From Dryomyza anilis (taxonomy: Eukaryota > Arthropoda > Insecta > Diptera > Dryomyzidae): 64,000 bases of DNA. Below are positions 1,990-50,605 of the stretch, in pieces. A program made the translations under genes and the position numbers. Position 1 is the stretch's first letter, and every line of letters begins with the position of its first letter. The DNA lies in assembly GCA_951804985.1 (NCBI GenBank), contig OX638130.1, forward strand, positions 106,714,040-106,778,039, read 5' to 3'. Below the pieces are notes generated by a model that did no database searches, was not told the origin of the DNA, and was given only the letters and a program-made list of their open reading frames with translations.

Positions 1990-2312
1990 TTTTTGCATCT
2001 GGGCACAGCGAGAACATGTCGGAACGTGTACGTATTTCAATCGAGCTACATGGACGTTTCTGACTGGTTCCGTTAAAATCTGAGACTTCTTCCATTGCAT
2101 CGTTTAACTAGAATTCAAAGTATTAATTAATTAAAATATCTAAAAAAATTATAATATCTTTACTTACTCCTGAAAAGTTTACATTTTCCACGAACTGTTA
2201 ATTCAAATATTCCGCCAAGGTTTACATACTGGGATGATTATCTGAAGATACGGCCGCGCAGCTGCTACTAAAGCAATTAAATTAATGCTGCTAGTATAAT
2301 TAAGCTATTCAT
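1990..2312 (-). pseudogene. Decayed copy of the cysteine-hairpin peptide gene (copy D)
   Basis: This is a two-exon relic on the minus strand. Exon 1 (about 2312-2168) still begins M-N-S-L but hits a stop after about 11 codons, has frame breaks in the signal and pro-region, and carries further stops where the intact genes read S-I-E-T-L and Y-L-D-E-Q. The splice donor GGA|GTAAG is kept. Exon 2 starts at 2107 after CTAG and stays open through the pro-region and an S-Q-K-R version of the cleavage motif. The mature part has then diverged: the second Cys and the basic/Ile pattern are lost, and a Glu appears in the first strand. Its loss of frame in exon 1 makes secretion of a working product unlikely. 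Confidence 0.75.
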
Positions 2313-2769
2313 TATGGGTTATTGGAATGAGATGTGTTAAAGCTCTGTAGTTATCGAAGAACAACTGATGAGCGCTTTTATAATCTTGTAACTTTATACC
2401 AACATTATTTAGCCTCAATGCAATTTATTAGAATTCTTAGAACACTTAAACATACTGGATTTTACACCAATTTTATTTAGCAAAGCTATTTTTTATTTAG
2501 CAAAGCTATTGTTATAGTATCTAACAAATGTGTTGTAACTTTTAGGGCCTTATTCACATAATTTGTCAAGTGCTTTAATCGTTAATTTATAATATATATA
2601 TATAAAATATAAAAATATGAAATTTAATAATAGATGGAAAATACAGCAAGTGGCAACTATAGCTATTTGCAGTTTGCAGTTTAAGCATTAAAGATTTAAA
2701 ATTTCATGCGAATTTCATTGGCTTAATTAATTCATATCGAAACAAAGAAAAGTCAATTGGAATTAATGT

Positions 2770-2930
2770 GAAACCAGTAGTATTCTAATGAAACAGTTCG
2801 AGGATTAAGTGAGCTTTTCAGGAATGAGTAAAAATTAATTTTAAAAACAATTTTAGTTAAATGATGCCGTGGAAAAGTCCCCGATTTTAATGACTCTAGA
2901 CAAAAGCTCCAATGTTTTATCTCTGTCCGT
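2770..2930 (+). pseudogene. Fragment of the same peptide gene (copy E)
   Basis: The plus strand retains the end of exon 1 (around 2795-2829, ending CTTTTCAGGA with the donor altered to ATGAGTAA). It also retains an exon 2 that starts at 2857 after TTTTAG. Exon 2 aligns with the acidic pro-region of the intact copies, but small deletions shift the frame before the cleavage site. The mature peptide is unrecognisable. No start codon or promoter equivalent was found upstream. It lies head-to-head with copy D, mirroring the inverted arrangement of the intact copies. Confidence 0.6.
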
Positions 2931-3013
2931 AGATGTAAATTGTAACAAGAATAATTTATATTGAGTGTAGTATGAACCCGAAATATATTCTGTCTTTTAT
3001 TTTCTAATTAATA

Positions 3014-3725
3014 ACACAGTGCGGCAAAATGACATATTTTTTAATTGAACTCCGATTTGTTTTTATAATATAAAAACAAATCTTGTCATTGGTTAGAATA
3101 TTAAAAAAGTTATAAGTCAAAACTATGACAAAAAAATGGGCTATATCTCAAAAACTAGAGCTAATAATAAAAAAACCAATGCCATTTTCGGAATTGATGC
3201 AATTTTCACTGCACTAAAATAATTGTAATAATATATTTCTACGACTTTATTCAAAATTGAAGTAAGAACTATTATTCGTTAGGCTTATATTTCCGAAATA
3301 TTACGCGTTGGAGTATTTAGTTGTTTAGAGACTCTAGCTCAATTTTAATGACGAATATTTTCCCCAAAGACATTATGATAGTTTTCTGACTTCTTCTATT
3401 GTTTATAACTCCTTAACGAAATTGTCAATAGAAAACCATTAAAAATAGTGGTAAACCTTTAAGATACAAACTTAAAGTGTTCAGTGGAAATCATCCTTAG
3501 GAAGTTCCCTATAATCGGTTCTTAGACATCAAAAACGAACTATGAACCATTTCGCTACAAAATGACGAACTATATTGTTTATCCTTTGAACCCTTCAGTA
3601 CCCCATAGCGCCTAAAGCAGACGTGTTGGGGTATAAGTTTATACTACATTTTTGTTCCACTGACCACATAGAGAACATTTAAATCAAAAAAAATTGGAGT
3701 TCAAATTTTAGTGCCGCACAGTGTA
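3014..3725. mobile_element. DNA transposon remnant with CAC(A/T)GTGCGGCA ends
   Basis: The left end reads CACAGTGCGGCA and the right end TGCCGCACAGTG, about 710 bp apart. The ends are inverted repeats with the flanking AT-rich sequence TAATTA close by on both sides. The right part is repeated in inverse orientation at 16297-16464 because it belongs to the segmental duplication. Interior text such as CTATATCTCAAAAACT recurs at 25.6 kb. No transposase frame is visible. Confidence 0.5.
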
Positions 3726-3944
3726 ATTAGAATATTTAAGGTTTAATATATTTTACTATTTTAACTCGTTCTTCTACAATATGATTACGTCTTATCGAAC
3801 TCTTCAAAAACAAACAGTATAAGAATTCGACTGAATTGCTGATTATTGTTAAATTTTTGAAAGTGCAGCGTCGTTGCAGCTCACTGGAAATTTAGAAATT
3901 GGAAACTGGTAGCAACAAATAGGTTTATTTTTATTGACACCCAA

Positions 3945-4200
3945 GGATAAAAATTCCAACGAATAACGGCTTCAATTTCACTTTTGGTTTTCTCCCTTGT
4001 TTCGATTTTAAGTTTAATAACGAAATGATTTTGGTAAATTGGTTCAAAGTTACGGTTTCCATATGAAACCGGCTTGAAACCGAAACTTTTATATTGGTTT
4101 TGGATACCAGCTTTTTAATGATTTTTGCAAACCTATTTCGGTTTTAAACATGAAACGGTTTTAAACAGATATCGATGTCGATTATGGTTACAGTTAAAAA
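3945..4200. mobile_element. CGGTTT-rich repeat element, copy next to peptide gene C
   Basis: The segment carries many CGGTTT/AAACCG motifs. It starts with CAAGGATA and ends with a block resembling GGTTTTAAACAGATATCG. The same family occurs at 9235-10465, 11930-12180 and 20110-20320. It lies about 80 bp beyond the stop codon of the peptide gene. I see no coding capacity. Confidence 0.5.
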
Positions 4201-4280
4201 AATATAATTCAAACGAATTTTATTTATATATCGGATGTTACATTAATTTATTTTAAATATTAGATAATAATGTACAATAA

Positions 4281-4621
4281 CTAACATCTGCGGATTATGA
4301 TAATGCGTCCCGAACGCGAACGAATTCGGATCGTGCGACATTGACGCTTTTGTCTCGTTCCATTGAAATCGGGGACTTCATCCACGTCATCGCTTATCTA
4401 GAATATATATATTTTTATTAAATTAATTTCTAAAGATCATTTTTTTCCCTTACTCCTGAAAAGCTTGTATTCTCCTCAAATTGTTCATCCAAATATTCGG
4501 CCAAGGTTTCTATACTGGGATGATTATCTGAAGTAACTGCAACCGCTGTAGACTGCTCGGCCGGTGCAGCTACTGTCAAAGCAACGAAGGCTAGAAGTAC
4601 TACAAACTTTAGACTGTTCAT
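4281..4621 (-). CDS. Cationic cysteine-hairpin secreted peptide precursor (copy C)
   Basis: This is a two-exon gene: exon 1 at 4621-4454, exon 2 at 4397-4281, intron GTAAGG...TTCTAG. The 94-aa precursor begins M-N-S-L-K-F-V-V-L-L, a hydrophobic signal peptide ending near A-A-P. An acidic pro-region follows, rich in Glu/Asp in both exons, then R-Q-K-R, a furin-type site. The last 20 residues have Cys at positions 2 and 20, seven Arg, no acidic residue, and alternating Arg/Ile around a S-R-S-G turn. The start at 4621 is chosen because the likely transcription start (4674) lies just upstream. The mature part is identical to copy A, with two differences in the precursor's first half (Val for Ile, Ser for Pro). 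It resembles beta-hairpin antimicrobial peptides in layout only. Antimicrobial function is inferred, and a peptide hormone is the main alternative. Confidence 0.82.
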
Positions 4622-4673
4622 GATGATGCGTTGTTGGAAAGTGCAAAGCTCTGTACGTATTGTGAAGCACAAC

Positions 4674-4779
4674 TGATGATCGTTGCAATATTCTTCGATC
4701 TTATATACTAACAAAATCATTAAATATACCTTAAAATACATTATTGATTCTGCAGAAATATTAGACATAAGGGATTTTA
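4674..4779 (-). promoter_or_regulatory. Core promoter and kappaB-like site of peptide gene C
   Basis: Read on the minus strand, TATATAA begins at 4707 and the insect initiator TCAGTT has its A at 4674, 33 bp downstream. About 100 bp upstream of the start is AGGGATTTTA (4770-4779), an 8/10 fit to the Rel/kappaB consensus GGGGATTYYT. A GATAA motif lies further upstream near 4822. Rel plus GATA sites close to a TATA promoter are typical of fly immune-peptide genes. Binding here is inferred. Confidence 0.5.
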
Positions 4780-4960
4780 CGCTTCATATGGCTTCATATT
4801 TTAAAATAGCACGTTCACTCAGTTATCGCTGTAACTGGCCTACTTTTAATAAACAATTTCTTTTCTTTAATATTTCTATTATTCTTTATTATTTTCAAAA
4901 ATTTTTTATTTCATTCCAATAAACTAAATTTATTGTAACATCTATGGAGTTAAATTAAAA

Positions 4961-5690
4961 AAAAAAACAATAATAAAATAGAAAAAAATGTACTAAGAAT
5001 TAAATTAGTTTTTGATTATTTCTAATCGTAATCAACATTTTTAATTACGACTACTAAAGAAATGTAATCAAAAACATATTATATAGTAATATTCCAAAAA
5101 ATTATCTAAAAATATATTTTTTAAAAATTTAAATTGAATTTTTATTATTCGGCTTAAAATAATCCCAAAAACAAACTTTTAGACTGTTTTAAAATAAAAA
5201 ATATTTACTGAAAGTGCTAAGTAAATATATTTTTAGAATGACGTCTATGTCTTGCAAAAATCTGATTTAACTTTATATTGATTTGTAGTACTTGCACACT
5301 AGAATAAAACATTTTGGAATACTCAATTCTTTTTTTCATTAGTTTATATGATTAAAATTAATATAAAATATATATTTTTTAATGTTTTAAAAGAAATAAT
5401 ATAAAATAAATAATTTATTTAAAATTATAAAAAAAAACGATCAATAATATTTAAATAAAAAATTTAATATTTCGACGAAGCTGTTTATTTAAGTTTTATA
5501 TATTTACAAATAAAACAATGGATTATAGTGGAATGTGGTAAAACCAAATAATTTGCAACTGAACATTTTTCCACGTATTTGCATGAAAACTACATTATAT
5601 TTAGCTGCATTAACTAATAAGTCACTAAACAAAGTCAACATTTATAATTAATATGCAAAACGTATTAAAATCTGGATAAACATTTTATTT
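4961..5690. other. Gene-free AT-rich spacer
   Basis: This stretch is extremely AT-rich with homopolymer runs. I see no coding frame, no recognisable repeat and no terminal inverted repeats in it. Confidence 0.5.
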
Positions 5691-6268
5691 AATTTATGGG
5701 CCATTCCACACCAATTCGACCAAAAAAAAGTCAAATTTGAGATTTTACCTTTTCGATTTCAATAAAATTTGGGCAACTAATAAAGGGTACCTAGATATGT
5801 ACTGACCATTTTTTTTTACTACTTCTACTACTTCCAGAGATACAGTAGCTCAAAGTTACAAAAAATTGGCCAAAAATCTCTTTTGTATTTAAATATCTCT
5901 TAAACTAGAAATGCTAGAAACTCCGCTGCTGGCTCGCGGTTGGCTAACAAGCTTTTAGCAAAATTAAATACCATCTTGAAATTTTGCAAGAACATTTATA
6001 ACAAATTGACGAAAATTTTGAATTTTTTTCAGAATTTTATAAAGCGTCAATTTTAAGGACATCAATTTTGAAGTACAAGGGCCACATGTTCACTTTTAGA
6101 AGTTATAACTTAATTGGTATAAAAGCTTGTTTTATTAGCTTTAAAACGAACCGTCAATCATTTCTACTTTAAGAGATATTGAAATATGAACAATCATAGA
6201 AAAGTAATTTTTGGTCCATTTTTTGTAACTTTAAACCACTGTATCTCTGAAAGTAGTGGACGAAAAAA
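5690..6268. mobile_element. Fold-back type repeat remnant
   Basis: Sequence near 5815-5890 (CTTCCAGAGATACAGTAGCT and following) reappears inverted near 6165-6260 (TGTATCTCTGAAAGTAG). This gives imperfect arms several tens of bases long around an AT-rich centre. No open frame exists. It abuts the DINE-like element that follows. Confidence 0.4.
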
Positions 6269-6978
6269 ATAAAAACTAGTTGGAAAGGTTAGATCACATG
6301 GGACATTTTTAAGTAGGTGTTATTATGATAGTTAGGATTATCAAAATTATAGTCGGTCTAAGCCGACTATAAATACCCTACACATATGTGTGGTTACCAT
6401 TAAAAGTGGTATATAGAACACCAGGGTATACGAATCCTGAAAATAACTACAAACTTTCAATCGCTGAAGAATTTCCATTCATTTGATACCCATATTTAAA
6501 AATTGGTAGGTGTACCGAATTTCGATTTTTTTTTTGTATTTTTCATGTATTTGAGCATGAGTCAATATATATTTGACCAACAAAAGTTTACCTAAGCACG
6601 TATACAGTAAAATTGATCTGTATATATATATTTTATATGAGGTATTTGAACATAAGTAGTCGGTTCTCAGTTCACAATAGACCTATCATACCAATTTTCT
6701 TGTTCAGACAGCTTAGATATATAAGTAATCTAAATCTAAAGTTTTATTGCTCTAGCTCTTCTATTTTTCTGTAATCGTGATTTCAACAGATAGACAGAGG
6801 GACAGACAGACGGACGGGCAGATGGACATCACTAAATCGACTCAGGAGGTCATGCTGATCAAGAATATATATACTTTTCCATACCGGAGATGCTTCCTTA
6901 TGGGTGTTACAAACGGCGTACCAAACTGTATATACCCTTTCACTCTTAGTGTAGGTTATAAAAATTTGAAGACATACA
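6269..6978 (+). mobile_element. DINE-1/mini-me-like Helitron-derived element, copy 1
   Basis: It begins near AGTTGGAAAGGTTAGATCAC. It contains the hairpin AGTCGGTCTAAGCCGACT, a GACR microsatellite (6787-6833) and a core including GGAGGTCATGCTGATCAAGA and ATATATATACTTTTCC, and it ends at TTAGTGTAGGTTATAAAAA. The core next to a GTCY/GACR microsatellite resembles Drosophila DINE-1/mini-me elements. This copy is more diverged than those at 45.6, 47.8 and 50.6 kb, with a short interrupted microsatellite, so it is probably the oldest. Confidence 0.65.
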
Positions 6979-7672
6979 TATTTATACATAGATTGTACAT
7001 TTTATCATAAAATCAAAATATTTGTATGGGACCTTTATAATCAATTAACAAGTAAAGCATAAATTGAAAACCGTTTTTAAATATCTCCAGTGGTTTAGTA
7101 TATATAAATTAGAAAGTCGAACATTTTTGTTGTTTTTTGAAAAATACCACTTATATATACGCAAATCTCTGTAATAATTTTTCTTCTTCAGTAACATTTA
7201 TTTTTGTTATATATTTTTTTGAAATTTTTTGCTGAAAATTTCTGATTCTGAAAATTTTTTAAACGATAAAAATTATCCAAAATATATTTAACTCATCTGG
7301 CAACACTGGTCAAAGTTAAAGTTTTTTTATTTTTTTACATTGACCCCCTGCAAAGCCCAAAGTCAAAATTTAAGTAAGCTATTTTAACATAATAAAATTT
7401 TTACCGAATTATACTAATTTTATATATTTCTAAATTAATAAAAATAATTTAAAATACCTAAAATAAATACCTACATTTTTACGTTGGCCTTTCAAAACAA
7501 AAAAAAAATGTTGACTTTATAATTTTATATTTACTAAACCACTGGATATATTTAAAAACGGTTTACTGTTTATGATTTATGTATTAAAAAATAAAAGTTC
7601 CATAAAAATATTTTGATTTCATGATAAAATGTATAATCTATGTATAAATATGTAAAGTAAAGTCTTCAAAAA
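6965..7672. mobile_element. Palindromic (fold-back) element
   Basis: The left arm (6965-7140) and right arm (about 7500-7672) are inverted copies. For example, TACATTTTATCATAAAATC on the left pairs with GATTTCATGATAAAATGTA on the right, and the outer TTTGAAGAC pairs with GTCTTCAAA. The right arm runs on into 7673-7985, which recurs at 22005-22380 in the TMEM201-like gene. There is no coding sequence. Confidence 0.6.
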
Positions 7673-7985
7673 TTAAAACTAAACAAGATATTAATATATA
7701 ACTGAACACATTTTCTATAGATCTTAATGTAAGCTTTTCTTATATAAATTTTTGCAATTTTTGACAGATTTTTCATGAATAAAATCTCAACATTTCTGAT
7801 TTTTATCTCCATAACCATTCAAGATACAAACCAATTTCAAAACTTATCTCAAAACGTTCTCTCAAGAATTCTCTATACAACACTTTTTAAATTTTTAAAA
7901 TCGGCTGAGTGGTTCCGAAAAGAATGAATTTCACCGGATTTAAGAGCGTTTGGCCACACTGTACAGTGGCCCTATTCTCAAGTTC
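7673..7985. mobile_element. Dispersed repeat, copy also present at 22 kb
   Basis: This segment shares order and wording with 22030-22375. Shared landmarks are the AGTCTTCAAAAA start, a GATTTTTA..TCTCCATAACCAT-like middle, AAAATCGGCTGAGTGGTTCC, and an end at GAGCGTTTGGCCACACTGTACAGTGGCC-type sequence (here split by the window's own variants). It is probably the terminal part of a non-autonomous transposon. Confidence 0.45.
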
Positions 7986-8580
7986 GTTCAAGATATTTTC
8001 TTGCGACAAATATGAAAACACTCCTTGATTCTTAAATGTAATGTATTTTTTTTGGAGTTATGTGAAGTTTGGAGTTATGTGAGTTTTTTAAAAATCGACA
8101 AATTGTCGCACGAAAATGTCAATTTTACAATGAATGTATTTTTTTTAGAGAGAATTTTGTCGAATGTAACAAAGTCGAACAAAAAAAATAATAAATAAAA
8201 AAGAGAATTCTCATAAGAACTTCAGATTTGGTTACCAGCAGGTTAATTCTGACTATTCAGTGTGTTAACCTGGTCTTTATTACTAATAACAATTTAACAA
8301 TCTTAAATAACAATTAATTAATAAGCAATTAATAAACTATAGAACAACAGCCCTGAAGAACCCAGACCGAATAAGTAAACTATATAAAACTGTCTGGGAA
8401 ATTGATAATACAACAAATATAACAAATGCTGGTTACACTTCAATTACTGTTCAATTAAATTTATAAGATTTTGCATAAATTTTCCCTGCACGATTAACAA
8501 TATAGCGCATGTTTGATGCGCTATTTGAAATTACCCAGAAAATCACAATTTTAAAGTATTCTTCAGAATAAATGAATTAA
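7986..8580. other. Spacer upstream of peptide gene B
   Basis: No gene is seen. The stretch includes a weak kappaB-like site (AAATTTTCCC at 8477-8486) about 150 bp upstream of the gene's start of transcription. A short ATAGCGCA...TGCGCTAT inverted repeat lies near 8503-8526. Confidence 0.4.
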
Positions 8581-8601
8581 ATGCGATGCGATGTAATTAC
8601 C

Positions 8602-8640
8602 TATAAAAGGGCGATGATTATTACAACTATCATCAGTTTG
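8602..8640 (+). promoter_or_regulatory. TATA plus initiator of peptide gene B
   Basis: TATAAAAG starts at 8602 and the initiator TCAGTTT has its A at 8635, 33 bp downstream. The translation start follows 16 bp later at 8651, so the 5'UTR is very short. Copies A and C show the same 33-bp spacing. Confidence 0.65.
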
Positions 8641-8650
8641 TATACGCATC

Positions 8651-8968
8651 ATGAACAGTCTAAAGTTTGTAGTACTTCTAGCCTTCGTTGCTTTGACAGT
8701 AGCTGCACCGACCGAGCAGCCTACAGCGGTTGCAGTAACTTCAGATAATCATCCCAGTATGGAAACCTTGGCGGAGAACATAAGTTTTTCAGGAGTAAGG
8801 GAAAAATATGATCATTAGAAATTAATTTAATAAGAATATCTATTCTAGATAAACGATGACGTGGATGAAATCCCCGATTTCAATGGAACGAGACAAAAGC
8901 GTCAATGTCGCACGATCCGATTTCGTTCGCCTCGAACGGGACGAATTATCATAATCCGCAGATGTTAG
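8651..8968 (+). CDS. Cationic cysteine-hairpin secreted peptide precursor (copy B, divergent)
   Basis: Exon 1 is 8651-8794 and exon 2 is 8849-8968, with a 54-bp intron GTAAGG...TTCTAG. The precursor has 87 aa and begins M-N-S-L-K-F-V-V-L-L, as in the other copies. Relative to copies A and C it lacks eight codons of the acidic pro-region (in-frame 24-bp deletion). The R-Q-K-R site is kept. The mature part is 21 residues instead of 20: Cys at 2 and 21, Phe replacing Ile at position 7, and a turn of S-P-R-T-G instead of S-R-S-G. The run of four Ile and the closing R-R-C are unchanged. It is the same kind of peptide with a remodelled turn. The open frame, retained splice sites and TATA promoter argue that it is functional. 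Confidence 0.8.
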
Positions 8969-9022
8969 TTATTGAACATGATTATCTAATATCTTAAATA
9001 TTGATGTAACATCGGAAATATA

Positions 9023-9028
9023 AATAAA
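9023..9028 (+). terminator. Polyadenylation signal of peptide gene B
   Basis: AATAAA lies 54 bp after the stop codon, followed by a TTTGTGTG-like stretch. Copy A has an equivalent AATAAA at 11890-11895. Confidence 0.6.
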
Positions 9029-9234
9029 ATTTGTGTGATTTATATTAAAGTTTAAGTTCAATTTTAATTGATGAACTAAAATCAATGCAAAAATGTATGT
9101 TTACCTTTATTTTTCATCCAAATAATGTATTTTAAATGATTGTTGGTCTACAAAATCAGATTTTACAGGGAATGAACTGGCATATCATTATAAATTAGAA
9201 AAAAGAAATAGGTAATCCGTAACAAAATTTTAAA

Positions 9235-10465
9235 GCAAGGATTGAAACATAAACAAATAACGATTTCGATTTCGGTTTTCCGCGTTTCGGTTACGGTTTC
9301 GGTTTTAAGTTTTTATAACGAAACGTTTAAGGTATACCGGTTCCAAATAACAGTTTTGGTTTTGATATCTTTTATTACATATTTTTTAAATAATTTAACA
9401 TTGTTTAGATGGTGCTAAGTCATGTTTAAATTGTGATATTGGGGTAAAGTGGGAAACGTAATTTCAACAATGTTTGTTGTTATTTTAGTGAAAATATTGT
9501 GTAATATGAAATATTTAATTGATTTCGCGCAGAACAAATTTCAATCGTGTCCACAAAGAATGAAAAGCAATATTTTGACATCACCTGAGATATCTGAATT
9601 GCAGAAGAGAGCCGTGAAGCTAAACAAATATCTGCCTGTATACTTGAAAGGTTGGAACTTTTCGAACTTGAACTTTATTTTTTGTATTTTTTAAGTAGTT
9701 AATAATTTAAATTTTTTTTTCTAATTTTTTCTTGCATTATTGCCATTGTTTTTTATTACCTTATTATAATTTTTTTATCCTTAATTATACTTACTATGTC
9801 CGAAATTGAGCTGTTTTGAAAAATCACTCTAAAATCAATTACAAAACGTATATGTTATATATATGTCTTTTAATTGATCCTTTAAAATAATCTAAAAATT
9901 ATTCAAATGAACCTTTCAAAACTTGTTCAAGGCCCCTCTATATATTTTACTAATACAATAAATAAAAAAATAATATTTAAATTTGAATCATTTTTAACAA
10001 AAAATTGCTTGGAGTTGCTGGTTTTTTGTTGTTAATTCGATTTACCGCTACACAAATTAATGAAAAACTCAAATGTAAAAAAACGCTTATACTGAACTTA
10101 ATATGTTCATTATTTCAAAATTGAACCAACTGCCATGTTGGTTCAATTTGAACCAGTTCAAGTATGAAAAAAAACACAAGCTATTGTTTCTTAAAAAACA
10201 ACATGTGAATTTTTGTACAAAAAACTTCAAATTTTATTAAATGACATTTATACATGCTTTGTGCTTAAGATCTTTTATATATAATAAAATATGTTTTTCT
10301 GTTTCTTTTTATACTTTTTTTAAAAACCGTTTTTAACCTTAAAACCAAACCATTTATTTCGGTTTTGGTATCGGTTTATTTCTGATTTTCGTATAACGGT
10401 TTCGGTTACGGTTTTAAAAATGAAACGGTTTTAAACGGATATCGGTTACGGTTTCTATCCTTGTT
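9235..10465. mobile_element. CGGTTT-rich element, longest copy
   Basis: Both ends carry CAAGGAT-type inverted termini (CAAGGATTGAAAC on the left, GTTTCTATCCTTG on the right). The subterminal 150-200 bp on each side are packed with CGGTTT/AACCGA repeats. The interior of about 900 bp is AT-rich. The open frame at 9449-9694 has no recognisable domain. It is likely a non-autonomous DNA transposon whose subterminal repeats may be transposase-binding sites. Confidence 0.5.
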
Positions 10466-11159
10466 TTAAAGAAATCAATGACAAAGTCAAAATTTGTAAT
10501 TAAATTTATGTAAATTTCGACTTTTGTACATTTTAAAATATACTTAAAAAAATGAAGTAAACATGCGATTTGGAAATGTTATACATTGTAATACATGGAA
10601 AGGTAATTTAATTGACTAAAATATGAGTAAAAAATGCACATATATTTATCATCAGATTATATTTTATAACTAATTTTCTTGACTATATTATATCAGTAAT
10701 ATGTATTTCTTAAACACCCTGTATCTTAAACTGGGTGCAATATTAGATATTTTTTTATTTCACGTTTTCTTATTTTTTGAGTCATGAATGACCCCCTGAA
10801 TTATTGACATCGATGAACCAAACACCCTGTATATATTAAAATATTATAAACCGTAACTGAAATGAACCGTTTGAGTTTCAATCATTGTTTCAATTATGAT
10901 AAATACCACTGAAATTGGTATTAGAAATTATAACATATACTTTTTTATTATCAAATATCTGCACATGTTGACTGGTAAATTAGTGTAAACAAGAGACTCC
11001 ATAGTATACGCATTTTATAGTGTTTTATTATTTCGAGGAAATCAATCAAAACTAAACAATTTATCTAACAAAAAATGGTCAATCAAAACCATTATATCTC
11101 TTAAATGGAACGTCCTACAGGGTCCAAAATAGTCACATTTATTAAAACTTCCATATAAA
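10466..11159. other. Gene-free spacer upstream of peptide gene A
   Basis: This is AT-rich. The phrase ACACCCTGTAT occurs twice (near 10715 and 10825), a small repeat. No gene is visible. Confidence 0.4.
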
Positions 11160-11334
11160 TAGAATTTATATGTTACAATAAAATTAGTTTATTGGAATGA
11201 AATAAAAAAAATGTTTGAAAATAATAAAGAATAATAGAAATATTAAAGAAAAGAAATTGTTCATTAAAAGTAGGCCAGTTACAGCGATAACTGAGTGAAC
11301 GTGCTATTTTAAAATATGAAGCCATATGAAGCGT

Positions 11335-11445
11335 AAAATCCCTAATGTCTAATATTTCTGCAGAATCAATAATGTATTTTAAGGTATATTTAAAGATTTT
11401 GTTAGTATACAAGATCGAAGAATATTGCTACGATCATCAGTTGTG
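11335..11445 (+). promoter_or_regulatory. Promoter and kappaB-like site of peptide gene A
   Basis: The TATA-like sequence TATACAAG begins at 11406 and the initiator TCAGTT has its A at 11439, 33 bp downstream. AAAATCCCTA at 11335-11344 is the reverse of a kappaB-like AGGGATTTTA, about 100 bp upstream of the start. This matches the arrangement at gene C, as expected from the duplication. Compared with gene C the TATA box has one substitution (TATATAAG to TATACAAG). Confidence 0.5.
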
Positions 11446-11491
11446 CTTCACAATACGTACAGAGCTTTGCACTTTCCAACAACGCATCATC

Positions 11492-11833
11492 ATGAACAGT
11501 CTAAAGTTTGTTGTACTTCTAGCCTTCATTGCTTTGACAGTAGCTGCACCGGCCGAGCAGCCTACAGCGGTTGCAGTAACTTCAGATAATCATCCCAGTA
11601 TAGAAACCTTGGCCGAATATTTAGATGAACAATTTGAGGAGAATACAAGCTTTTCAGGAGTAAGGGAAAATATGATCCTTATAAATTAATTTAATAAAAA
11701 TATATATATATTCTAGATAAGCGATGACGTGGATGAAGTCCCCGATTTCAATGGAACGAGACAAAAGCGTCAATGTCGCACGATCCGAATTCGTTCGCGT
11801 TCGGGACGCATTATCATAATCCGCAGATGTTAG
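11492..11833 (+). CDS. Cationic cysteine-hairpin secreted peptide precursor (copy A)
   Basis: Exon 1 is 11492-11659 (56 codons) and exon 2 is 11717-11833 (38 codons plus TAG), with a 57-bp intron GTAAGG...TTCTAG. Residues 1-19 form a signal peptide. Residues 20-70 are an acidic pro-region with E-Y-L-D-E-Q-F-E-E and, in exon 2, D-D-V-D-E. R-Q-K-R ends at residue 74. The final 20 residues are the predicted mature peptide, net charge about +7, with two Cys that could close a hairpin around S-R-S-G. The strands alternate Arg and Ile and end with four Ile before R-R-C. An in-frame Met 147 bp upstream is rejected because it lies before the predicted transcription start. The product probably acts outside the cell on microbial membranes, but this is inferred from architecture. 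I know no named family that matches. Confidence 0.83.
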
Positions 11834-11889
11834 TTATTGTACATTATTATCTAATATTTAAAATAAATTAATGTAACATCCGATATATA

Positions 11890-11895
11890 AATAAA
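11890..11895 (+). terminator. Polyadenylation signal of peptide gene A
   Basis: AATAAA lies 57 bp past the stop codon. The same signal is present in mirror orientation after gene C. Confidence 0.6.
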
Positions 11896-11929
11896 ATTCG
11901 TTTGAATTATATTTTTTTAACTGTAACCA

Positions 11930-12180
11930 TAATCGACATCGATATCTGTTTAAAACCGTTTCATGTTTAAAACCGAAATAGGTTTACAAAAATCATTAAA
12001 AAGCTGGTATCCAAAACCAATATAAAAGTTTCGATTTCAAGCCGGTTTCATATGGAAACCGTAACTTTGAACCAATTTACCAAAATCATTTCGTTATTAA
12101 ACTTAAAATAGAAACAAGTGAGAAAACCAAAAGTGAAATTGAAACCGTTATTCGTTTGAGTTTTTATCCTTGGGTGTCAA
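11930..12180. mobile_element. CGGTTT-rich repeat element, copy next to peptide gene A
   Basis: This is the duplicated counterpart of 3945-4200, inverted. It ends with TTTATCCTTGGGTGTC. It was present before the segmental duplication. Confidence 0.5.
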
Positions 12181-12361
12181 TAAAAAAAACTATTTGTTGC
12201 TTCCAGTTTCCAATTTCTAAATTTCCAGTGAGCTGCAACAACGACGCACTTCCAAAAATTTAACAATAGTCAGCAATTCAGTCGAATTCTTAGACTGTTT
12301 TTGAAGAGTTCGATAACACTTTATCATATTGTAGAAGAACGAGTTAAAATAGCAAAATATA

Positions 12362-15300
12362 TTATGTGTGTGAAGATATCCATAAAAAGATATCCATAAA
12401 TGTTAACTGCTTAACAGATGTGGAACATATGTTAAACACTGTGGTAGATATGTTAAAAGTTTTTTGACAACTCTAAAAATGAATAAAAACTCTAAAAAAT
12501 AGTATTTTTAATATATTTAGTTGACTAAAAGGCTTAAACCACTAATATATTATAGTTTTCAATAAGATTATTGCGTACGATTTAGTAAAAAACGAATTAA
12601 ACACAAAACAAAAAATGAATGTTATACGAAATTAAAATTGCTGCAGATTTTAAAAAAATGCCTCCCGACTAAAGTGTGATACCACGTTGGAATCCTCAAC
12701 ACCATAGCTATCACGCTAACTAGGTGTGTACTCGGAGAATCTTCTCTGGACCTCACAATTTGCGTCCAAAGTAACCTCCAAATATGAACATTTTTCATGA
12801 AAATAGCCCAACTGTAGAACCACTCCCATTTTTAAAAAAATGCCTCCCCAAACAAGTGGAACACCTTTTTGGAATCATTATACCCTAATCTAGTTATGGA
12901 TAGTAGGTCACCACGCGGAGAATCGTCTCTGGACTTCGCAATTTGCGTCCAAAGTAACCTCAAAATATGAACATTTTTCATGAAAATAGCCCAACTGTAG
13001 AACCACTCCCATTTTTAAAAAAATGCCTCCCCAAATAAGTGGAATACCTTTTTGGAATCATTATACCCAAATCTAGTTATGGATAGTAGGTCACTACGCG
13101 GAGAATCGTTTCTGGACTTCGCAATTTGCGTCCAAAGTAACCTCAAAATATGAACATTTTTCATGAAAATAGCCCAACTGTAGAACCACTCCCATTTTTA
13201 AAAAAATGCCTCCCCAAATAAGTGGAACACCTTTTTGGAATCATTATACCCTAATATAGTTATGGATAGTAGGTCACCATGCGGAGAATCGTCTCTGGAC
13301 TTGGCAATCTGCGTTCAAAGTAATCTCCAAAGTTCATTGTCCTTAATATTTATCTGTTAACAGCATATGTTTACATTTAGGGTTATTTTTTGTGGATCTT
13401 GTTTGTTATGACATCCCTGACTTGTGTTCTTCTATGAAATGTCAGACCAGTAGAGTGTTGCCCACAGACAACGATTTTTACAACAACCACAAGAAAAATT
13501 AAAATAAAGTTGTTGTAAAATTCGTTGCTAGCTCGATGATCAGCTGTTATTGTTTATATATTTTTCAAAAGTTTGGAGTCGTTTTAGAGGACGGAGGATT
13601 CAAATGATTGAATGACAATGGTACCAAAAAATTTCTAAAAATGAGACCTTTCGAATGGTTTGACTTTCATTTCACCAATATATTTCTACATCTTTCAAAT
13701 CGGCCATAACCTCAAATTTTTGATTCAATATTCATTTCTGGGATTAACAAAATTTTCTGCATATATGGAATTATTCTATAAACAGAAATATTCATTTGAA
13801 TTTCAAGAAGAAATATACTGTGTAGAACAGAAAAGTAAAGAACTCAAATGATTTACTAAATCGTTACCTGAGAACGTGTTTGCCCCATATGCCAATTAGT
13901 CGGGTTCGAGTCAAACAATAACGAACATTTACATTAATTTTTTTCGAAATCTACGCGTTAACTATTTTTTTTATATTCGTAATTAATTACAGGATAAATT
14001 GGCTCCATATACCAAAAAGTGGTGTATGGAGCAATACAATGTTAAGTAAACGATAAAATAATGAATTTGGGAAAAGTCGATTCTGAATATCTCAGATGTA
14101 ATAAGGATATCGAAAAATAGAAATCGGTATTACAACTACAGTATATAAGTGATAAAGATCCAATACGTAATTTAAAGCAAACAAAAATGGCGTATGGGAC
14201 AATCAAATTCGCAGCTGACTAGATTTGGGAAAAAATCCTAAGAAATCCCACATGTGATATTTTGAACACGAATGGTAACACGCATGACATGGCACAAAAT
14301 GAAGTAACAAAAAAAAGATGAAATCGAAGATTCACTTGAATGCTTCGTCTACATCTTTTTATGAAAGCCCTTACCAGTTATACCAAAGTATATATGGAAT
14401 TTATTATTATTTAAATTTTAAAAATGGTTTTCTTGGATTCGTTTCTATCTAAAGGATGGATAAAATCAAAAATGCAGGCATATTTATATATCAATACTAT
14501 TTCCGGTATATTAAATATGCGAATTAATTTTAAGAGCGAATTTTAGTGAATACAATTTTGAATAGTAGGAAATTCGTTAGGATATTGATACTGGTATCGA
14601 AATTTTTGTAAAAATAATATCTATCGCAGGGCATAGGTGTCATATATGCAGAAAATTTTGTTAATCCCAGAAATGAATTTTGAATCAAAAATTTGAGGTT
14701 ATGGCCGATTTGAAAGATGTAGAAATATATTGGTGAAATGACAGTCAAACCATTCGAAAGGTCTCATTTTTAGAAATTTTTTGGTACCATTGTCATTCAA
14801 TCATTTGAATCCTCCGTCCTCTAAAACGACTCCAAACTTTTGAAAAATATATAAACAATAACAGCTGATCATCGAGCTAGCAACGAATTTTACAACAACT
14901 TTATTTTAATTTTTCTTGTGGTTGTTGTAAAAATCGTTGCTGTGGGCAACACTCTACTGGTCTGACATTTCATAGAAGAACACAAGTCAGGGATGTCATA
15001 ACAAACAAGATCCACAAAAAATAACCCTAAATGTAAACATATGCTGTTAACAGATAAATATTAAGGACAATGAACTTTGGAGATTACTTTGAACGCAGAT
15101 TGCCAAGTCCAGAGACGACTCTCCGCATGGTGACCTACTATCCATAACTATATTAGGGTATAATGATTCCAAAAAGGTGTTCCACTTATTTGGGGAGGCA
15201 TTTTTTTAAAAATGGGAGTGGTTCTACAGTTGGGCTATTTTCATGAAAAATGTTCATATTTTGAGGTTACTTTGAACGCAGATTGCCAAGTCCAGAGACG

Positions 15301-16278
15301 ATTCTCCGCATGGTGACCTACTATCCATAACTATATTAGGGTATAATGATTCCAAAAAGGTGTTCCACTTATTTGGGGAGGCATTTTTTTAAAAATGGGA
15401 GTGGTTCTACAGTTGGGCTATTTTCATGAAAAATGTTCATATTTTGAGGTTACTTTGGACGCAAATTGCGAAGTCCAGAAACGATTCTCCGCGTAGTGAC
15501 CTACTATCCATAACTAGATTTGGGTATAATGATTCCAAAAAGGTATCCCACTTGTTTGGGGAGGCATTTTTTTAAAAATGGGAGTGGTTCTACAGTTGGG
15601 CTATTTTCATGAAAAATGTTCATATTTTGAGGTTACTTTGGACGCAAATTGCGAAGTCCAGAAACGATTCTCCGCGTAGTGACCTACTATCCATAACTAG
15701 ATTTGGGTATAATGATTCCAAAAAGGTATTCCACTTATTTGGGGAGGCATTTTTTTAAAAATGGGAGTGGTTCTACAGTTGGGCTATTTTCATGAAAAAT
15801 GTTCATATTTGGAGGTTACTTTGGACGCAAATTGTGAGGTCCAGAGAAGATTCTCCGAGTACACACCTAGTTAGCGTGATAGCTATGGTGTTGAGGATTC
15901 CAACGTGGTATCACACTTTAGTCGGGAGGCATTTTTTTAAAATCTGCAGCAATTTTAATTTCGTATAAAATTCATTTTTTGTTTTGTGTTTAATTCGTTT
16001 TTTACTAAATCGTACGCAATAATCTTATTGAAAACTATAATATATTAGTGGTTTAAGCCTTTTAGTCAACTAAATATATTTAGTCAACTAAATATATTAT
16101 AAATATTTAGTCAACTAAATAAATATTTAGTCAACTAAATATATTTAGAGTTTTTATTCATTTTTAGAGTTGTCAAAAAACTTTTAACATATCTCCCACA
16201 GTGTTTAACATATGTTCCACATCTGTTAAGCAGTTAACATTTATGGATATCTTTTTATGGATATCTTCACACACATAA
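12362..16278. mobile_element. Foldback (FB)-type transposable element with subrepeat-built arms
   Basis: The long inverted arms are 12362-13767 and 14641-16278, and both start TTATGTGTGTGAAGATATCC from the outside. Inside the left arm a 183-bp unit is repeated four times (CCTCCC at 12661, 12843, 13026, 13209). The right arm has five units. Each unit carries phrases such as AACATTTTTCATGAAAATAG and GGATAGTAGGTCAC. The 870-bp centre (13768-14640) has no convincing gene. Long inverted arms made of tandem subrepeats define Foldback elements. The paralogous site at about 3740-3755 is empty, so this copy inserted after (or on only one side of) the segmental duplication. Confidence 0.8.
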
Positions 16279-16464
16279 CATAAATATTCTAATTACACTG
16301 TGCGGCACTAAAATTTGAACTTCCATTTTTTTTTTTTTATTTAAAGGTTCTCTATGTGGTCAGTGGAACGTAAATGTAGTATAAACTTATACCCCAACAC
16401 GTCTACTTTAAACGCTATGGGGTACTGAAGGGTTCAAAGGATAACCAATATAGTTCGTCATTTT
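16279..16464 (+). repeat. Arm 2 of the inverted segmental duplication (second part)
   Basis: It matches the reverse complement of 3565-3740, including the CACTGTGCGGCA transposon end and GTTCTCTATGTGGTCAGTGG. It resumes exactly where the Foldback element ends. Confidence 0.75.
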
Positions 16465-19001: not shown

Positions 19002-22000
19002 ATGAACAATAATTACTTGCTGTCGCTGGTGAGCAGCGCAGTGCCACTGCTGGCGATTGGATTCGTTGCAGTGCTACTGATTTATAAAATTTACATAAAA
19101 ATACGGTAAGTTTTATAATAGTTTCAATGGACACAGCAACACGATGACTAGACGTATAGTTTGGAGAATATAGCTTAAAGTTGCAACAGTCGCTTAAGCA
19201 GTATTTTTCATTTGGCGCCTTTTTCCAACTGATTTTGGCTTTTTCTTTATACATTTTTAACGACTCACGCCCTAATTACACACTATTTTTAGTTCCAAGT
19301 TCAACACCGCTGTCAACTGTTGGTTCTGCAATCAAAACGCACGCGTTCCCTACCTCGAGGCCAACAGTTGGACATGTCCGCACTGTGAACAATACAACGG
19401 CTTTACCAAGGATGGCGACTACAATCGGGAAATGTATCAGCAATTGGACTGCAGCAATTTGTCATCGTCCGGCACAAAGTCTATCTGTCAATCGGATCAT
19501 TCGTCACCACGTCGAACGTTGCTGCCACCACGTAATGGATTCTGTGAGGGTTGTAATGAGGCGCAACGCCTTAAAGTGGAGAAATTGGCGCAATTTGAAC
19601 CCAAGAATGAGTCACATTTCGATGAAGAACTTAAGGTTTACAAGTACGTATACGATGTTGCTGTTTTTGTTGTTGTTGTTGCAAAGATTCTTTTACTTAT
19701 AATATTTTTTTCTACACAAACAAAACAAACAAAAAAACTCTTGTTTTCGACGGCATAAAATCCTTAGTTTAACAGCTGTGGAAAATAATGCATTTCTACC
19801 TGCAGCACAGCGCGGCTTGGCAGCCTTTACGGCACAGGTAGCACATATTCTAAAGGTTCAGGCTGTGTAGCTCTTATTGTGGATGTTGTCACATAAATAA
19901 GTCTTGGAATTTTTTTTTGGGAAAATTTGTGCACAGATTGATGTTCGGTTGATGCCCTGTAGATGTTTGCTAACATATGTCAACTCAGCACGTACTGCAA
20001 CAAATGCTATTAGGATTCAAGAAATCTTTGGTATTAGGGCGAACAAAGCGACTTGGTTGCAGAGATATTTATGCGCGCTAATCTGTACGAAAAGCTGTGG
20101 TAAAGTCAGAAGCAGAGACGGTTATCGATATTGTTTTAAAACGGTAATCGAAACCGTCAAAGTTTTTAGAGGTTTAAGTTTTATATTGGTTTTAAAAATA
20201 TGAAATATTAAATAATTATTTTTTTTTATCTGAACATTAAAAATATGAACTGAAAAAAACAAAAGTAGTAGAAAACCAGAATCAAACCGTTATTCGTTTT
20301 AATTGAGTTCAAATTTTTATTATTATTTAATAAAAAATACTCAATACGATATTTTTGTATGCACATCTAACACATTATTTTCTTATATTTCGCGTGTAAA
20401 TATTTATATGGTTTTTCCTACTATGTAACGTTTTAAAAAAAATTGCAATTGAAATTTTAGGCACTACTCAGCCAAACTCAGCCTTTTCAAAAAAAAATAT
20501 ATGTTATTTTTCTCTAAATTGCCAAGACTAATTTTAATATACTAAAAAATGTTAATATTCCAATACGACTTTAAGATATTTGGTTCCGAACTCAAAAAAT
20601 TAATTTTTTTTTGGACAGTTTTTGAAATATTTTTTTAGTATTTAGAATCTAATGTTAAACAAGAAAATGATGTATGGTTATACAGAAAATTGCAAAAACT
20701 AATTTTAATATACCAATGAAAGTTAATATTCCTATACGATATTAAGATAATTGGTTCCAAACTCAAAAAATTTAATTTTTTTTTGTCAGTTTTTAAAATA
20801 TTTTTTTAGTATTTAGAATCTAATGATAAACAAGAAAATCATTTATGGTTATACAGAACATAGTCTAAACTAACGAACAAAATTACTAGCTTTTATCAAA
20901 TTGTTCTACATTTTAAAATATGCGCTTACCAAAAGTTTAAAATCAACATCAGTTTAAAATCACATAGTCTATCGTCGCAAAGTGATAAAACTGAGTCTAA
21001 ATCGTTATAATATATATCGACGTTGTAGTTGTAATTCAATATTGTTAGCAATTCTAGGAAAAAAAAAACATAATAATCTGTCACATTGTATAAATTCAAT
21101 AAACAATCGAAAAAATATATTATTTATTAAATAAATTACAATAATTTCAATTACTTCCAGCACTGTGCATAAATAACATAAAATTAAATCATTTTTTTCC
21201 TCCTCCTCCCCCCCTGCAGAGCAAAACTTGAAGAGCAGTATCGTCTCTGTTCGACGTGCGATCGTCACCTGGGCAAAGTGTTGCGCGAGAAGAAAAAAAT
21301 GGTGCTGGGCTCCAAATTTCTCGACTTCATTATCAAAGGTGCCGAAACGCTCAAACAGCCACATTTCAATCAGTTGCGTTTTGCGCGTCAACAACACTGG
21401 AAGCAACGTTTTGCACGTTGCACAACACTACTTGCCATCGGTAACATTGTCTGCCTGTTGTGTGTGTTGCCCACATTGAAACGTGAAACACTTACGAACA
21501 TTTTGGGTGAAGTACTGGGCACACAACTCTTTATTGGCTGTTCGCATTTGTTGGCATTGAGCAAAGTGTTGGGCGCTTATGTGGAGACAGCAGCCGCACA
21601 GCCTTTGCTTATCAAATCGGCGCTCTTTATGCGCACACTCTTCATGATGTTGCTCTATTCGTTGGGTCTGAAGTGGCCACAAATTGTGAGTTTTCACTTT
21701 GGCAGTCTCTATTTGTTGGTCGGTCCCTTTGGGCTGCTCGCCTGCGCATTTGGCTACAATGTTTTTGATGGTTTTCGATTGAATCGTTTTACGTTTTTGC
21801 TGGCGCTGTGGAGCGCTTTTGCTGCGGGACTGTTTGATGAGGAGCGCGTCAGCGTCAGCGTCTGGATCTCGAAGGAGGCTTTAATGGTGAGTTGAAAAAA
21901 GTATTGAAATCGATTCATTATTTTGTAATGAAATCGAATTATATTAAATTTTGAAGATCAAATAATAATTTTTCCAATTGCATTGCAACATTTAATATTT

Positions 22001-23754
22001 ATTTATAAATATGTTAAGTAAAGTCTTCAAAAACTTAAAAAGAGTCTCGTGTTCATGTTTATTTCCATATTTTAACAAGTGTTAAGCACATTTTAATTAT
22101 ATTTTGATGCAAGCTTTTCAAAAAGAAAAGAATTTTTAAAATCGTTTCATTTTGGATTTGTGATATTATTTGAAAAAAGTGTCACCTTTGTTGATTTTTA
22201 ACTCTATAATCATACAAGATGCAATTTTCAATTTCAGCACTTAAATTCTCTTAAGAAATCTCTATAAAATACTTTTTAAATGTAAAAAATCGGTTCAGTG
22301 ATTCCGAAATTAATGAATTTCGACACTTTTTAGAGCGTTTGTGCCCATCGTGCGTCTTATTAAAGTGGCCGGTTAGTTTTATTTAAAAAATGACAGAACT
22401 AGGGCAGTTGAAATAATTACCCCGTAGGCCTGTATTTGGCAATGAAAATCGCTGCATTACAAAATATGGAAACCCTAAATTCGTGACCGATTATTAATAT
22501 TGTCTTTCTCTATATTCTTTTTTTTTTATATATACCCAGCTCATTTATTCAGTCTGCACTTTGCTGCTCTCGTTGAGCTCCAAGCATGAAACCACTGCCA
22601 AACTGCACGACGACACCGCGCACAGCTTCCACAAGCTCTACTCCGAGGACTATTTCAGCGACGACGAAACCATGAGCATGTTGAGTCAGCAGCTGAACAG
22701 CAGCGCTGTCTCCATGCGCAGCGCCGGCTCCTCCTGTTCGCCGCGTTCCACCAACACCGCTGCTGCCACCACCACAGCACATTACGCTGAGCTACACAAG
22801 TCGCCATCGCTACGTTCATTGAATTTGCCGCGTAATACACAGCTCTCGCCAAATTCAAGTTTTCGCTCTTTTTGTCTCGACGACAATCAGTCGCTGCTGC
22901 GTTCACCACACTATGCCGCCTCACTATGCAACTTTCCGACGAGCGTGCCGCCGCCGCCCATGGTACGTTCACCGCTATTTGCCTCCAGTCAAGAGTTGAG
23001 TTGCGGTGGCGGCATCAGCATTAATGACACCCTAACCAATGGTAGCTTTTTGCCGCCTTTGTCGCAGCCGCAACGCAAGAGCGATGAGTCACTTTGGCGT
23101 GGCAGCAGCAGCTACAACAATCAACCGCCGCAGCACGCGTTCTCAACTGCCTACTCTGCCTCCAACAATGCTGTGCATCAACAGCGCGCACACAGTTTAA
23201 TAACGCCTTCACGTTTTAGCAACGACTGTCTGGCGAGCAATGCTTCGGCCGCGTCTTGGCTGTCGGGCGGTTACTTTAATCAGCGCCATCCGTTGACAAA
23301 TCAACAGCACCAGCAGCAGTTGTTGCTGCAACAGCAACCGCGCAACGGCATGAGCGTCATTGCGGAGAGTTTGTCGCGCGCCTCCTCGCACTCGTCCGGT
23401 TTTGAGTCACAGCACGAACGTCCGTGTGCCTCGCGCGAAAATTCCTATGGCCCGGAGCCGCTCGATGTGTTGCAGCGCACGATTTGTGTAGACGATGCAC
23501 GCGGCTTTCTGCCTATCGATGGCAGCTGCTACTCACCGCGTGCTTCGTTGCTCTCACAGCCGCTGACTGTGAACTGCGCCACCACTGCAGCGCCGCAGCA
23601 ACATGATTTGTGGCCACGCGCGCCTGTTATGCGTGAAAACGGCTTCGGCGCCGCGCGCGACTCCTTCAACTTGCGTCAAATCAACGCGGAGCTGCCGTCC
23701 ATCAGACGTGGCGATTTGCTCAAGAAATGGAAGCAGAGCCAGGCTTCGACTTAG
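19002..23754 (+). CDS. TMEM201: TMEM201/NET5/Samp1-like inner nuclear membrane protein
   Basis: There are four exons: 19002-19105, 19293-19643, 21220-21886 and 22540-23754, with GT-AG introns and phases that join cleanly to 778 aa. An N-terminal membrane segment (about 10-33) is followed by the Ima1 N-terminal domain. Its Cys pairs are C44/C47 (N-C-W-F-C-N), C63/C66 (W-T-C-P-H-C-E-Q-Y-N-G-F), C119/C122 and C162/C165, the expected zinc-type ligands. Further membrane segments lie at about 219-238, 255-273, 285-303, 307-330, 342-357 and 372-387. The tail (388-778) is Ser/Gln-rich and disordered. In other animals this family sits in the inner nuclear membrane and links to the LINC complex and centrosome/spindle. 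Introns 2 and 3 contain repeats. Identification is strong from the Cys motifs and overall layout, and exact exon boundaries are good. Confidence 0.9.
19768..19870 (+). other. Possible alternative terminal exon of the TMEM201-like gene
   Basis: After CCTTAG a frame continues in phase with exon 2 for 33 codons (including N-N-A-F-L-P-A-A-Q-R-G-L) and ends at TAG. Its base composition looks coding against the AT-rich intron. Use would give a short protein of about 185 aa, cut before the membrane segments that follow the Ima1 domain. The acceptor is weak and no good AATAAA follows. Confidence 0.25.
20110..20320. mobile_element. CGGTTT/AAACCG-type repeat fragment in intron 2
   Basis: It contains GACGGTTATCGATATTG, AATCGAAACCGTC and AATCAAACCGTTATTCG, as in the elements near the peptide genes. 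It is shortened and has no coding capacity. Confidence 0.4.
20517..20875. repeat. Two-unit tandem duplication of about 180 bp in intron 2
   Basis: The phrase ACTAATTTTAATATAC recurs at about 20528 and 20698. Each is followed by matching text through GTATTTAGAATCTAATG and a TTATGGTTATACAGAA-type end. Confidence 0.6.
22005..22380. mobile_element. Dispersed repeat in intron 3 (second copy of the 7.7-kb repeat)
   Basis: It starts with TAAGTAAAGTCTTCAAAAAC and ends near GAGCGTTTGTGCCC...AGTGGCC, in parallel with 7650-7985. It is diverged and non-coding. Confidence 0.45.
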
Positions 23755-28900: not shown

Positions 28901-29110
28901 TTTATTTAATAAATTGTGAAAAATTGAAATCAATCAGATCAAAATTTGGTGTATGAGAAATTGTTCAACAGGATATAAGAGTAAAGCTTGCCATTTTTCG
29001 ATCTTCATTGAGGTCAACATCAATGTTTTTGATGGGGTCAAAGAGGTCAACTTTTAGTTTTTTGCATTTATCTTCAGTATTTTAAATTTTAAAATAAAAA
29101 TAGTAAAATT
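26000..29110. repeat. Tandem array of a 450-570 bp repeat, seven units
   Basis: The landmark CCCACGTTTTATTT (first unit CCAACG) occurs at about 26031, 26601, 27054, 27523, 27971, 28419 and 28893. Each unit contains CCATTTTTCGACCTCCATAG, GGTCAAAGAGGTC, TTTTTTGCATTTATCTCG and TTTTTGAGATACAGCGC in the same order. Units 3 and 6 (27054 and 28419) are nearly identical and are three units apart, which suggests a higher-order period of about 1365 bp. It is a local satellite-like array with no coding. Confidence 0.85.
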
Positions 29111-48002: not shown

Positions 48003-48037
<35 letters not shown>

Positions 48038-50508: not shown

Positions 50509-50605
50509 TTTGATTGATACTCAATTATACAGTTGCGTTCAATCGCGCGTGTTGGTAAAAATCTAAAATAGAAAAAAATGAAAATTAAAAAATGTTTTAA
50601 CACAA

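Follow-up and report, generated by a model that had tools for sequence, protein, structure and literature searches.

Organization of the gene cluster

The window, meaning the whole stretch of DNA analyzed, covers 64 kb of contig C1 in the Dryomyza anilis assembly (656.6 Mb, 69 contigs). It contains three intact two-exon genes (B, C, and D) and two decayed copies (A and E), as the preliminary description had read it (Table 1). The introns measure 56 nt in B, 54 nt in C, and 57 nt in D, with GT..AG ends in all of them. Precursor D gives seven matches in the whole genome, all within the cluster. The complete precursor layout had been assigned to each of the five copies. It holds for B, C, and D and fails for A and E. 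In copy A, the mature part is out of frame and has acidic residues. In copy E, it is mostly gone, and the signal part was not found. Judging from its sequence, the cluster was shaped by duplication and decay (birth-and-decay).

Table 1. Location of genes, remnants, promoters, and duplicated arms in the window
Feature	Position	Strand	Details
Decayed copy A	~2312-1990	-	SQKR, in-frame stops, frame breaks
TATA-initiator relic, 5' of copy A	2363..2398	-	
Decayed copy E	2785..2936	+	Short remnant, RQKL
Inverted-duplication arm carrying B	3744..4944	-	96.2% identical to 11167-12364
Intact gene B	4281..4621	-	Exons 4621-4454 and 4397-4281; 94-aa precursor
Mature peptide B	4284..4343	-	20 aa, C-terminal to RQKR
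Core promoter of B	4671..4707	-	TATATAA, ATCAGTT 30 nt on
Core promoter of C	8602..8638	+	TATAAAA, ATCAGTT 30 nt on
Intact gene C	8651..8968	+	Exons 8651-8794 and 8849-8968; 87-aa precursor
Mature peptide C	8903..8965	+	21 aa, C-terminal to RQKR
Inverted-duplication arm carrying D	11167..12364	+	Partner of 3744..4944
Core promoter of D	11406..11442	+	TATACAA, ATCAGTT 30 nt on
Intact gene D	11492..11833	+	Exons 11492-11659 and 11717-11833; 94-aa precursor
Mature peptide D	11771..11830	+	20 aa, C-terminal to RQKR

Genes B and D lie in an inverted duplication of 1.2 kb with 96.2% identity. Their mature peptides are identical because of this recent descent and, therefore, do not count as independent evidence. 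Compared with B and D, gene C lost eight residues of the pro-region and gained one in the turn of the mature peptide, with in-frame indels only. Its mature part also shows Ile replaced by Phe and Ser by Thr. The dN/dS estimates are 0.042/0.104 for the pair C-D, with few changes, and 0.009/0.047 for B-D, from five differences; both are only mildly less than 1.

A TATA-like box is present 30 nt upstream of ATCAGTT in the three intact genes. Between C and D, the 37-nt core promoter is 78% identical, against 22-32% in the three 37-nt blocks upstream.

Features of the encoded precursors

The intact precursors begin with a putative signal peptide (recognized by eye), followed by an acidic pro-region and a furin-type RQKR site, and end in a peptide of 20-21 aa. 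The mature sequence is QCRTIRIRSRSGRIIIIRRC in B and D and QCRTIRFRSPRTGRIIIIRRC in C. Each mature peptide has seven Arg, two Cys, and no Asp or Glu, giving a charge of +6.7 at pH 7. The pro-region of D has about -10 at the same pH. The Cys spacing is C-X17-C in B and D, and C-X18-C in C. The last residue is Cys, and an amidation signal is absent. Strands of alternating Arg and Ile had been reported. Strand 1 does alternate, and strand 2 reads IIIIRR instead.

We counted stop-ended frames with a strongly basic, two-Cys, acid-free tail after RX[KR]R, a pattern defined only after genes B, C, and D had been seen. It occurs in 3 of the 8,548 frames of the window, which are B, C, and D themselves. 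The tails are not due to chance, since none of the 513,306 frames from 60 simulated windows carries one. The sequence itself shows genes of two exons, each with a core promoter and coding for an acidic pro-region, a furin-type site, and a two-Cys C-terminal peptide rich in Arg and Ile.

Predicted structure of the mature peptides

AlphaFold2 was given 38-39 residues, with three sequences or one. For B/D, it predicts strands at 15-26 and 32-37 (block pLDDT 88-90), with a mean pLDDT from 68 to 84 across five models. For C, as a single sequence, the strands are at 21-26 and 33-38 (block pLDDT 93-94). A hairpin is predicted for both natural variants, although modeling from such small inputs is not strong evidence. 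Counting outward from the turn of the predicted hairpins, Cys stands opposite Cys in B/D and in C. One face would have four Ile (three Ile and Phe in C) between two Arg. The Cys pair would lie on the other face, along with three Arg, two Ile, and Thr. The hydropathy of the two faces differs only moderately (1.5 vs -0.03). Of the two predictions, one shows the prodomain as a strand lying against the cationic hairpin. Foldseek gives no fold match of weight for these models; for copy C, the list includes an arenicin-3 analogue (5v11) in 37th place (E 6.7, not significant).

Searches in databases and literature

We searched 5.8 billion proteins twice and obtained nothing at E<=10, with just 4 and 19 word-sharing candidates scored. 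A positive control with Moesin shows that many flies are represented in this database. Likewise, the PDB sequence search with the B/D 20-mer has no match at E<=10. Five peptide strings are absent from the open-licence PMC papers searched. In titles and abstract openings of such papers, none among the matches listed describes a fly family of this kind. Within these collections, and in Pfam, the family is unrecognized, as had been proposed. The precursors had not been matched to cecropin, attacin, or five other named peptide families. For cecropin, attacin, and other families modeled in Pfam, the Pfam-A scan of precursors D and C agrees, with zero families over the cut-off. The lowest E-value belongs to Calc_CGRP_IAPP (E 0.063; 14.2 bits vs a cut-off of 22.3).

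The protein searches found no relatives in other species. "Fly-specific", the term used in the preliminary description, is wider than the evidence, as the family is known from a single genome. The tephritid setting also lacks support: in the Moesin tree, Dryomyza anilis falls outside the sampled tephritids.

Comparison with known peptide families

In a recent review, beta-hairpin antimicrobial peptides (AMPs) have 11-25 aa, a charge from +1 to +8, and at least one disulfide-bonded Cys pair with three or more residues between (PMC13001179). Our peptides (20-21 aa, +6.7) lie within the limits of length and charge, and their two Cys, 17 or 18 residues apart, would form the putative disulfide; for class membership, the review asks for experimental evidence of the hairpin beyond modeling, and for activity in host defence (PMC13001179). 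They also fit its description of the class: Arg without Lys, Ile in the strands, Gly, Pro, and Arg in the loop, and zero acidic residues. The resemblance to this class, noted before, is supported by composition and by the hairpin that AlphaFold2 predicts.

The lugworm arenicins are cationic hairpins of 21 residues, with Cys near both ends closing a ring; here, the hairpin is predicted. Arenicin-1 and -2 have one disulfide and come from 202-aa precursors with a BRICHOS domain, against 87-94 aa in our genes (PMC13001179). In the Pfam scan of precursors D and C at E<=10, BRICHOS does not appear, which argues against membership of the arenicin/BRICHOS group.

Thanatins are insect hairpins with a single disulfide (PMC13001179). 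The thanatin-like Rip-2/3/4 precursors of true bugs share with ours the signal, the acidic prodomain, a KR-type site, and a short cationic AMP (PMC11597323). Nevertheless, the hallmark of that family is a C-X6-C loop (PMC11597323). With C-X17-C (B, D) or C-X18-C (C) instead, our peptides fall outside it.

Tachyplesins, gomesin, and protegrins are cationic disulfide-closed hairpins. All three have two disulfides and need four Cys, whereas mature B, C, and D have only two each, so these groups are discarded.

L011 and L012, two defensins encoded by this fly, present a signal, acidic pro-regions (-8.2 and -6.2), and an RQKR site identical to that of the cluster precursors. However, their mature domain has six Cys instead of two, and the Pfam scan lacks Defensin_2. 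Our precursors are not insect defensins. BLASTP against L011 gives no alignment at E<=100. The likeness between pro-regions is at shuffle level (161 and 497 of 500 shuffles reach the score). Ceratotoxins and cecropins are also small, secreted, cationic fly peptides in gene families, but they are linear, helical, and without Cys. The two cecropins of this fly are located elsewhere, on C3.

Proposed function and alternatives

In this higher fly, the genes probably represent a single-locus, lineage-restricted family of secreted beta-hairpin AMPs. The best reading is that they work like arenicin or thanatin, being members of neither. The N-terminus would act as a signal peptide and lead to secretion. 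The acidic part (about -10) may neutralize the cationic part (about +7) and hold the peptide inactive. Cleavage after RQKR would be the work of a furin-like convertase, pyroglutamate may form from the N-terminal Gln, and the two Cys would close the hairpin. This moderately amphipathic hairpin could then bind and disrupt microbial membranes or outer-membrane targets. The peptides may act as immune effectors, as had been proposed, with genes that would be expressed and induced in immunity, and disulfide-closed products that would kill microbes.

A further proposal, for and against which we give even weight, is that the family arose independently and is the first beta-hairpin antimicrobial family from Diptera. 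It would combine a wide arenicin-like single-disulfide ring (17-18 residues between Cys) with a short acidic prodomain from which furin-type cleavage frees the peptide. This prodomain would be both a strand against the hairpin and a built-in inhibitor. The family would belong to one higher-fly lineage missing from the protein database.

The peptides could instead be secreted in the reproductive tract or by a gland (accessory gland, saliva), perhaps antimicrobial there and not systemic immune effectors. We consider this unlikely, although the cluster is lineage-restricted and the medfly has a restricted female-gland AMP family, the ceratotoxins, as precedent (PMC5034548). No sequence feature points to a gland. 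The kappaB-type sites bear on both sides. A canonical site lies about 63 nt upstream of the TATA box in each of the two cecropins identified in the assembly. Unlike them, the copies of the cluster do not all have one at the expected place: GGGATTTTAC is absent from the upstream region of C, where only GGGAAATT occurs, at -255. On the other hand, GGGATTTTAC lies 71 nt 5' of the TATA box in B and D, with its strand matching that of the cecropin sites, and by descent this counts as one event. It points weakly to immune induction.

A precursor of a peptide hormone or neuropeptide with a disulfide ring is improbable. The prepropeptide layout and the basic cleavage site are common in hormone precursors, and the lowest Pfam E-value, far below the cut-off in score, is for one such family. 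However, hormone precursors are conserved across flies as a norm, and no relative was found in a database that covers many flies. Multiple copies with decay, a charge of +7 together with a run of four Ile, and the missing amidation signal also argue against it. Equally improbable is a cationic peptide whose targets are nucleic acid or eukaryotic cells (saliva- or signaling-like) instead of microbes. Arg-rich peptides can enter cells, but nothing here is specific to such a target, and the layout is typical of AMPs. Finally, it is also improbable that these are non-functional or never-expressed frames kept by recent duplication. Two of the five copies are decayed, and B and D are recent. Nevertheless, C is more diverged yet intact, its splice sites are kept, its indels are all in-frame, and its core promoter remains while the upstream sequence diverged.

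If the proposed AMP function is true, the arenicin-like ring of this fly family would clearly exemplify convergence on the beta-hairpin scaffold. The 2026 review counts only 27 families of macrocyclic beta-hairpin AMPs, 25 of them natural (PMC13001179). From insects, it names at least the thanatins and a fragment of a beetle defensin, and its main text, tables aside, uses neither "Diptera" nor "fly". Diptera is an order with strong genetics, and the mature 20-21-mers are ready for synthesis. B/D and C offer a natural structure-activity pair, differing in turn length and in the two substitutions, Ile to Phe and Ser to Thr.

Gene cluster and its history

The first 12 kb of the window holds five copies (A to E) of one small gene. 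The preliminary description had counted three intact two-exon genes and two decayed ones. We read the same genes, with their layout and tail, directly in the sequence. The window covers positions 106714040-106778039 of contig C1, in a genome of 656.6 Mb and 69 contigs.

Coordinates of the peptide gene copies and of the control gene (window positions)
Feature	State	Positions	Strand	Product or domains
Gene B	intact	exons 4621-4454, 4397-4281	-	94 residues
Gene C	intact	exons 8651-8794, 8849-8968	+	87 residues
Gene D	intact	exons 11492-11659, 11717-11833	+	94 residues
Copy A	decayed	about 2312-1990	-	
Copy E	decayed	2785-2936	+	
Moesin		32244-38378 (five exon pieces read)	-	FERM and ERM domains (Pfam) in two pieces

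The two exons of each intact gene are separated by a GT..AG intron of 54-57 nt, placed between codons. In D, two AATAAA signals can be read no more than 65 nt past the stop. A 1.2 kb inverted duplication (arms 96.2% identical) holds B in one arm and D in the other. B and D differ at 5/285 coding columns and 30/920 non-coding columns, and 11 further non-coding differences are gaps. Apart from substitutions, nothing but in-frame indels separates C from D: C lacks eight residues of the pro-region and has one more in the turn. The values for C-D (dN 0.042, dS 0.104) and B-D (dN 0.009, dS 0.047) come from very few changes and only lean towards constraint.

The genome contains three exact copies of a 33-mer across the cleavage site, one each in B, C and D. 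With the D precursor as protein query, the genome gave 7 matches at E<=10, all in this cluster (A to D); copy E was too weak to appear at this threshold. A large palindrome adjoins D (12358-16282), and its arms hold oppositely oriented 183-bp tandem arrays (12733-13331, 15076-15857). A dispersed repeat at 6268-6965 recurs, with 82-85% identity, at 45598-46336, at 50604-51344 and, inverted, at 47838-48601.

Precursors and predicted structure

The B, C and D precursors share one order: a hydrophobic N-terminus, an acidic pro-region (net charge about -10), RQKR and the mature peptide. Judged by eye, the N-terminus reads as a signal peptide, and the product may be secreted. The mature peptide is QCRTIRIRSRSGRIIIIRRC in B and D and QCRTIRFRSPRTGRIIIIRRC in C. 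Its charge is about +6.7, with seven Arg, two Cys, no Lys and no acidic residue. RX[KR]R before a two-Cys, acid-free, strongly basic tail was found in 3/8,548 stop-ended frames of the window (B, C and D) and in 0/513,306 frames of 60 simulated windows. The pattern was written with the genes already seen and the counts are not a P value, but they show that base composition does not produce the feature by accident.

The preliminary description had proposed a structure prediction of the mature part, and AlphaFold2 gave a two-stranded hairpin for both D and C. Exon 2 of D, aligned with B and C, shows strands at 15-26 and 32-37 (block pLDDT 88-90) and a third strand (2-9) within the acidic part; the best mean pLDDT was 84.4, with 68-74 in the four other models. 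Exon 2 of C, predicted from one sequence, shows strands at 21-26 and 33-38 (block pLDDT 93-94), with the pro-part strand absent. That the pro-region covers the hairpin is an idea whose sole structural basis is this pro-strand, predicted in one of the two models. Counted outward from the turn, Cys would face Cys in both variants. The predicted hairpin has one face with two Arg and four Ile (in C, Phe takes the place of one Ile) and a second face made up of the Cys pair, three Arg, two Ile and one Thr. Fold searches gave no match of weight.

Proposed class and mechanism

By length and charge, the peptides fit the beta-hairpin antimicrobial class as outlined in a review, which demands experimental evidence for membership (PMC13001179); the hairpin here is predicted. 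Known families were weighed against this reading. Thanatin was rejected because its ring size differs. Arenicin was rejected because its precursors carry a BRICHOS domain and Pfam finds none in ours; no Pfam family passed the cut-off in the precursors. The peptides are not defensins either, and they show no detectable sequence kinship with the two defensins of this genome (L011 and L012, about 6 kb apart on contig C4). The acidic pro-regions of these two defensins (-8.2 and -6.2) are both followed by the same RQKR as in B, C and D, so the processing proposed here has a precedent in this fly.

The peptides most likely work like hairpin peptides. They would be made in an inactive form and cut free by a furin-like convertase. 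One disulfide would then close the peptide, which would act on microbial membranes, could kill in this way and may have an immune role.

Promoters

A TATA-like box lies 30 nt before ATCAGTT: TATATAA in B, TATAAAA in C and TATACAA in D. C and D share 78% identity over this 37-nt core, against 22-32% (ungapped) over the three 37-nt blocks upstream of it. Local alignment of their 300 nt upstream scored no better than shuffles. Decayed A retains the initiator and TATA-like boxes. The core promoters point, indirectly, to transcription.

B and D have the candidate kappaB site GGGATTTTAC 71 nt upstream of TATA. It is on the same strand as GGGGATTCC and GGGGGTTCC, the sites that two cecropins of this genome (contig C3) have about 63 nt before TATA. 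C lacks a site at this position and has only GGGAAATT at -255. A similar site is present in just one of the two defensins. The loose pattern has a background of 0.31 per 400 bp, so immune control is only suggested.

Relatives and other features of the window

Searches for relatives among 5.8 billion proteins gave no match at E<=10. Together with the Pfam result, this agrees with the family having been called unrecognised. As control query, Moesin matched 5,096 proteins at E<=1e-50. The best 120 include Drosophila, Bactrocera, Zeugodacus, Anastrepha, Rhagoletis and Eurosta, and also Lucilia, Calliphora, Musca, Stomoxys, Glossina and hover flies; thus the database is rich in flies. In a tree of Moesin from the window and 34 of these 120 matches (midpoint root, for drawing only), the window row stands apart from the tephritids, the drosophilids and the muscid-calliphorid group. 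Its best identity is 96%, it is in no starred fork and the separating split has support 92/88. This fly is therefore probably a higher fly of a family other than these groups.

The exon at 19276-19758 encodes the N-terminal domain of Ima1 (PF09779, 89.8 bits). Pfam gave no hit at E<=0.01 for the open frames downstream of it (21188-21892, 22498-23751). Open frames at 24730-25353 are possible pieces of a mariner-type transposase; the two tested there were also without Pfam match at E<=0.01. A 448-bp tandem repeat (6.3 copies) occupies 26210-29109, and a 39-bp minisatellite of about 73 copies occupies 52239-55097.
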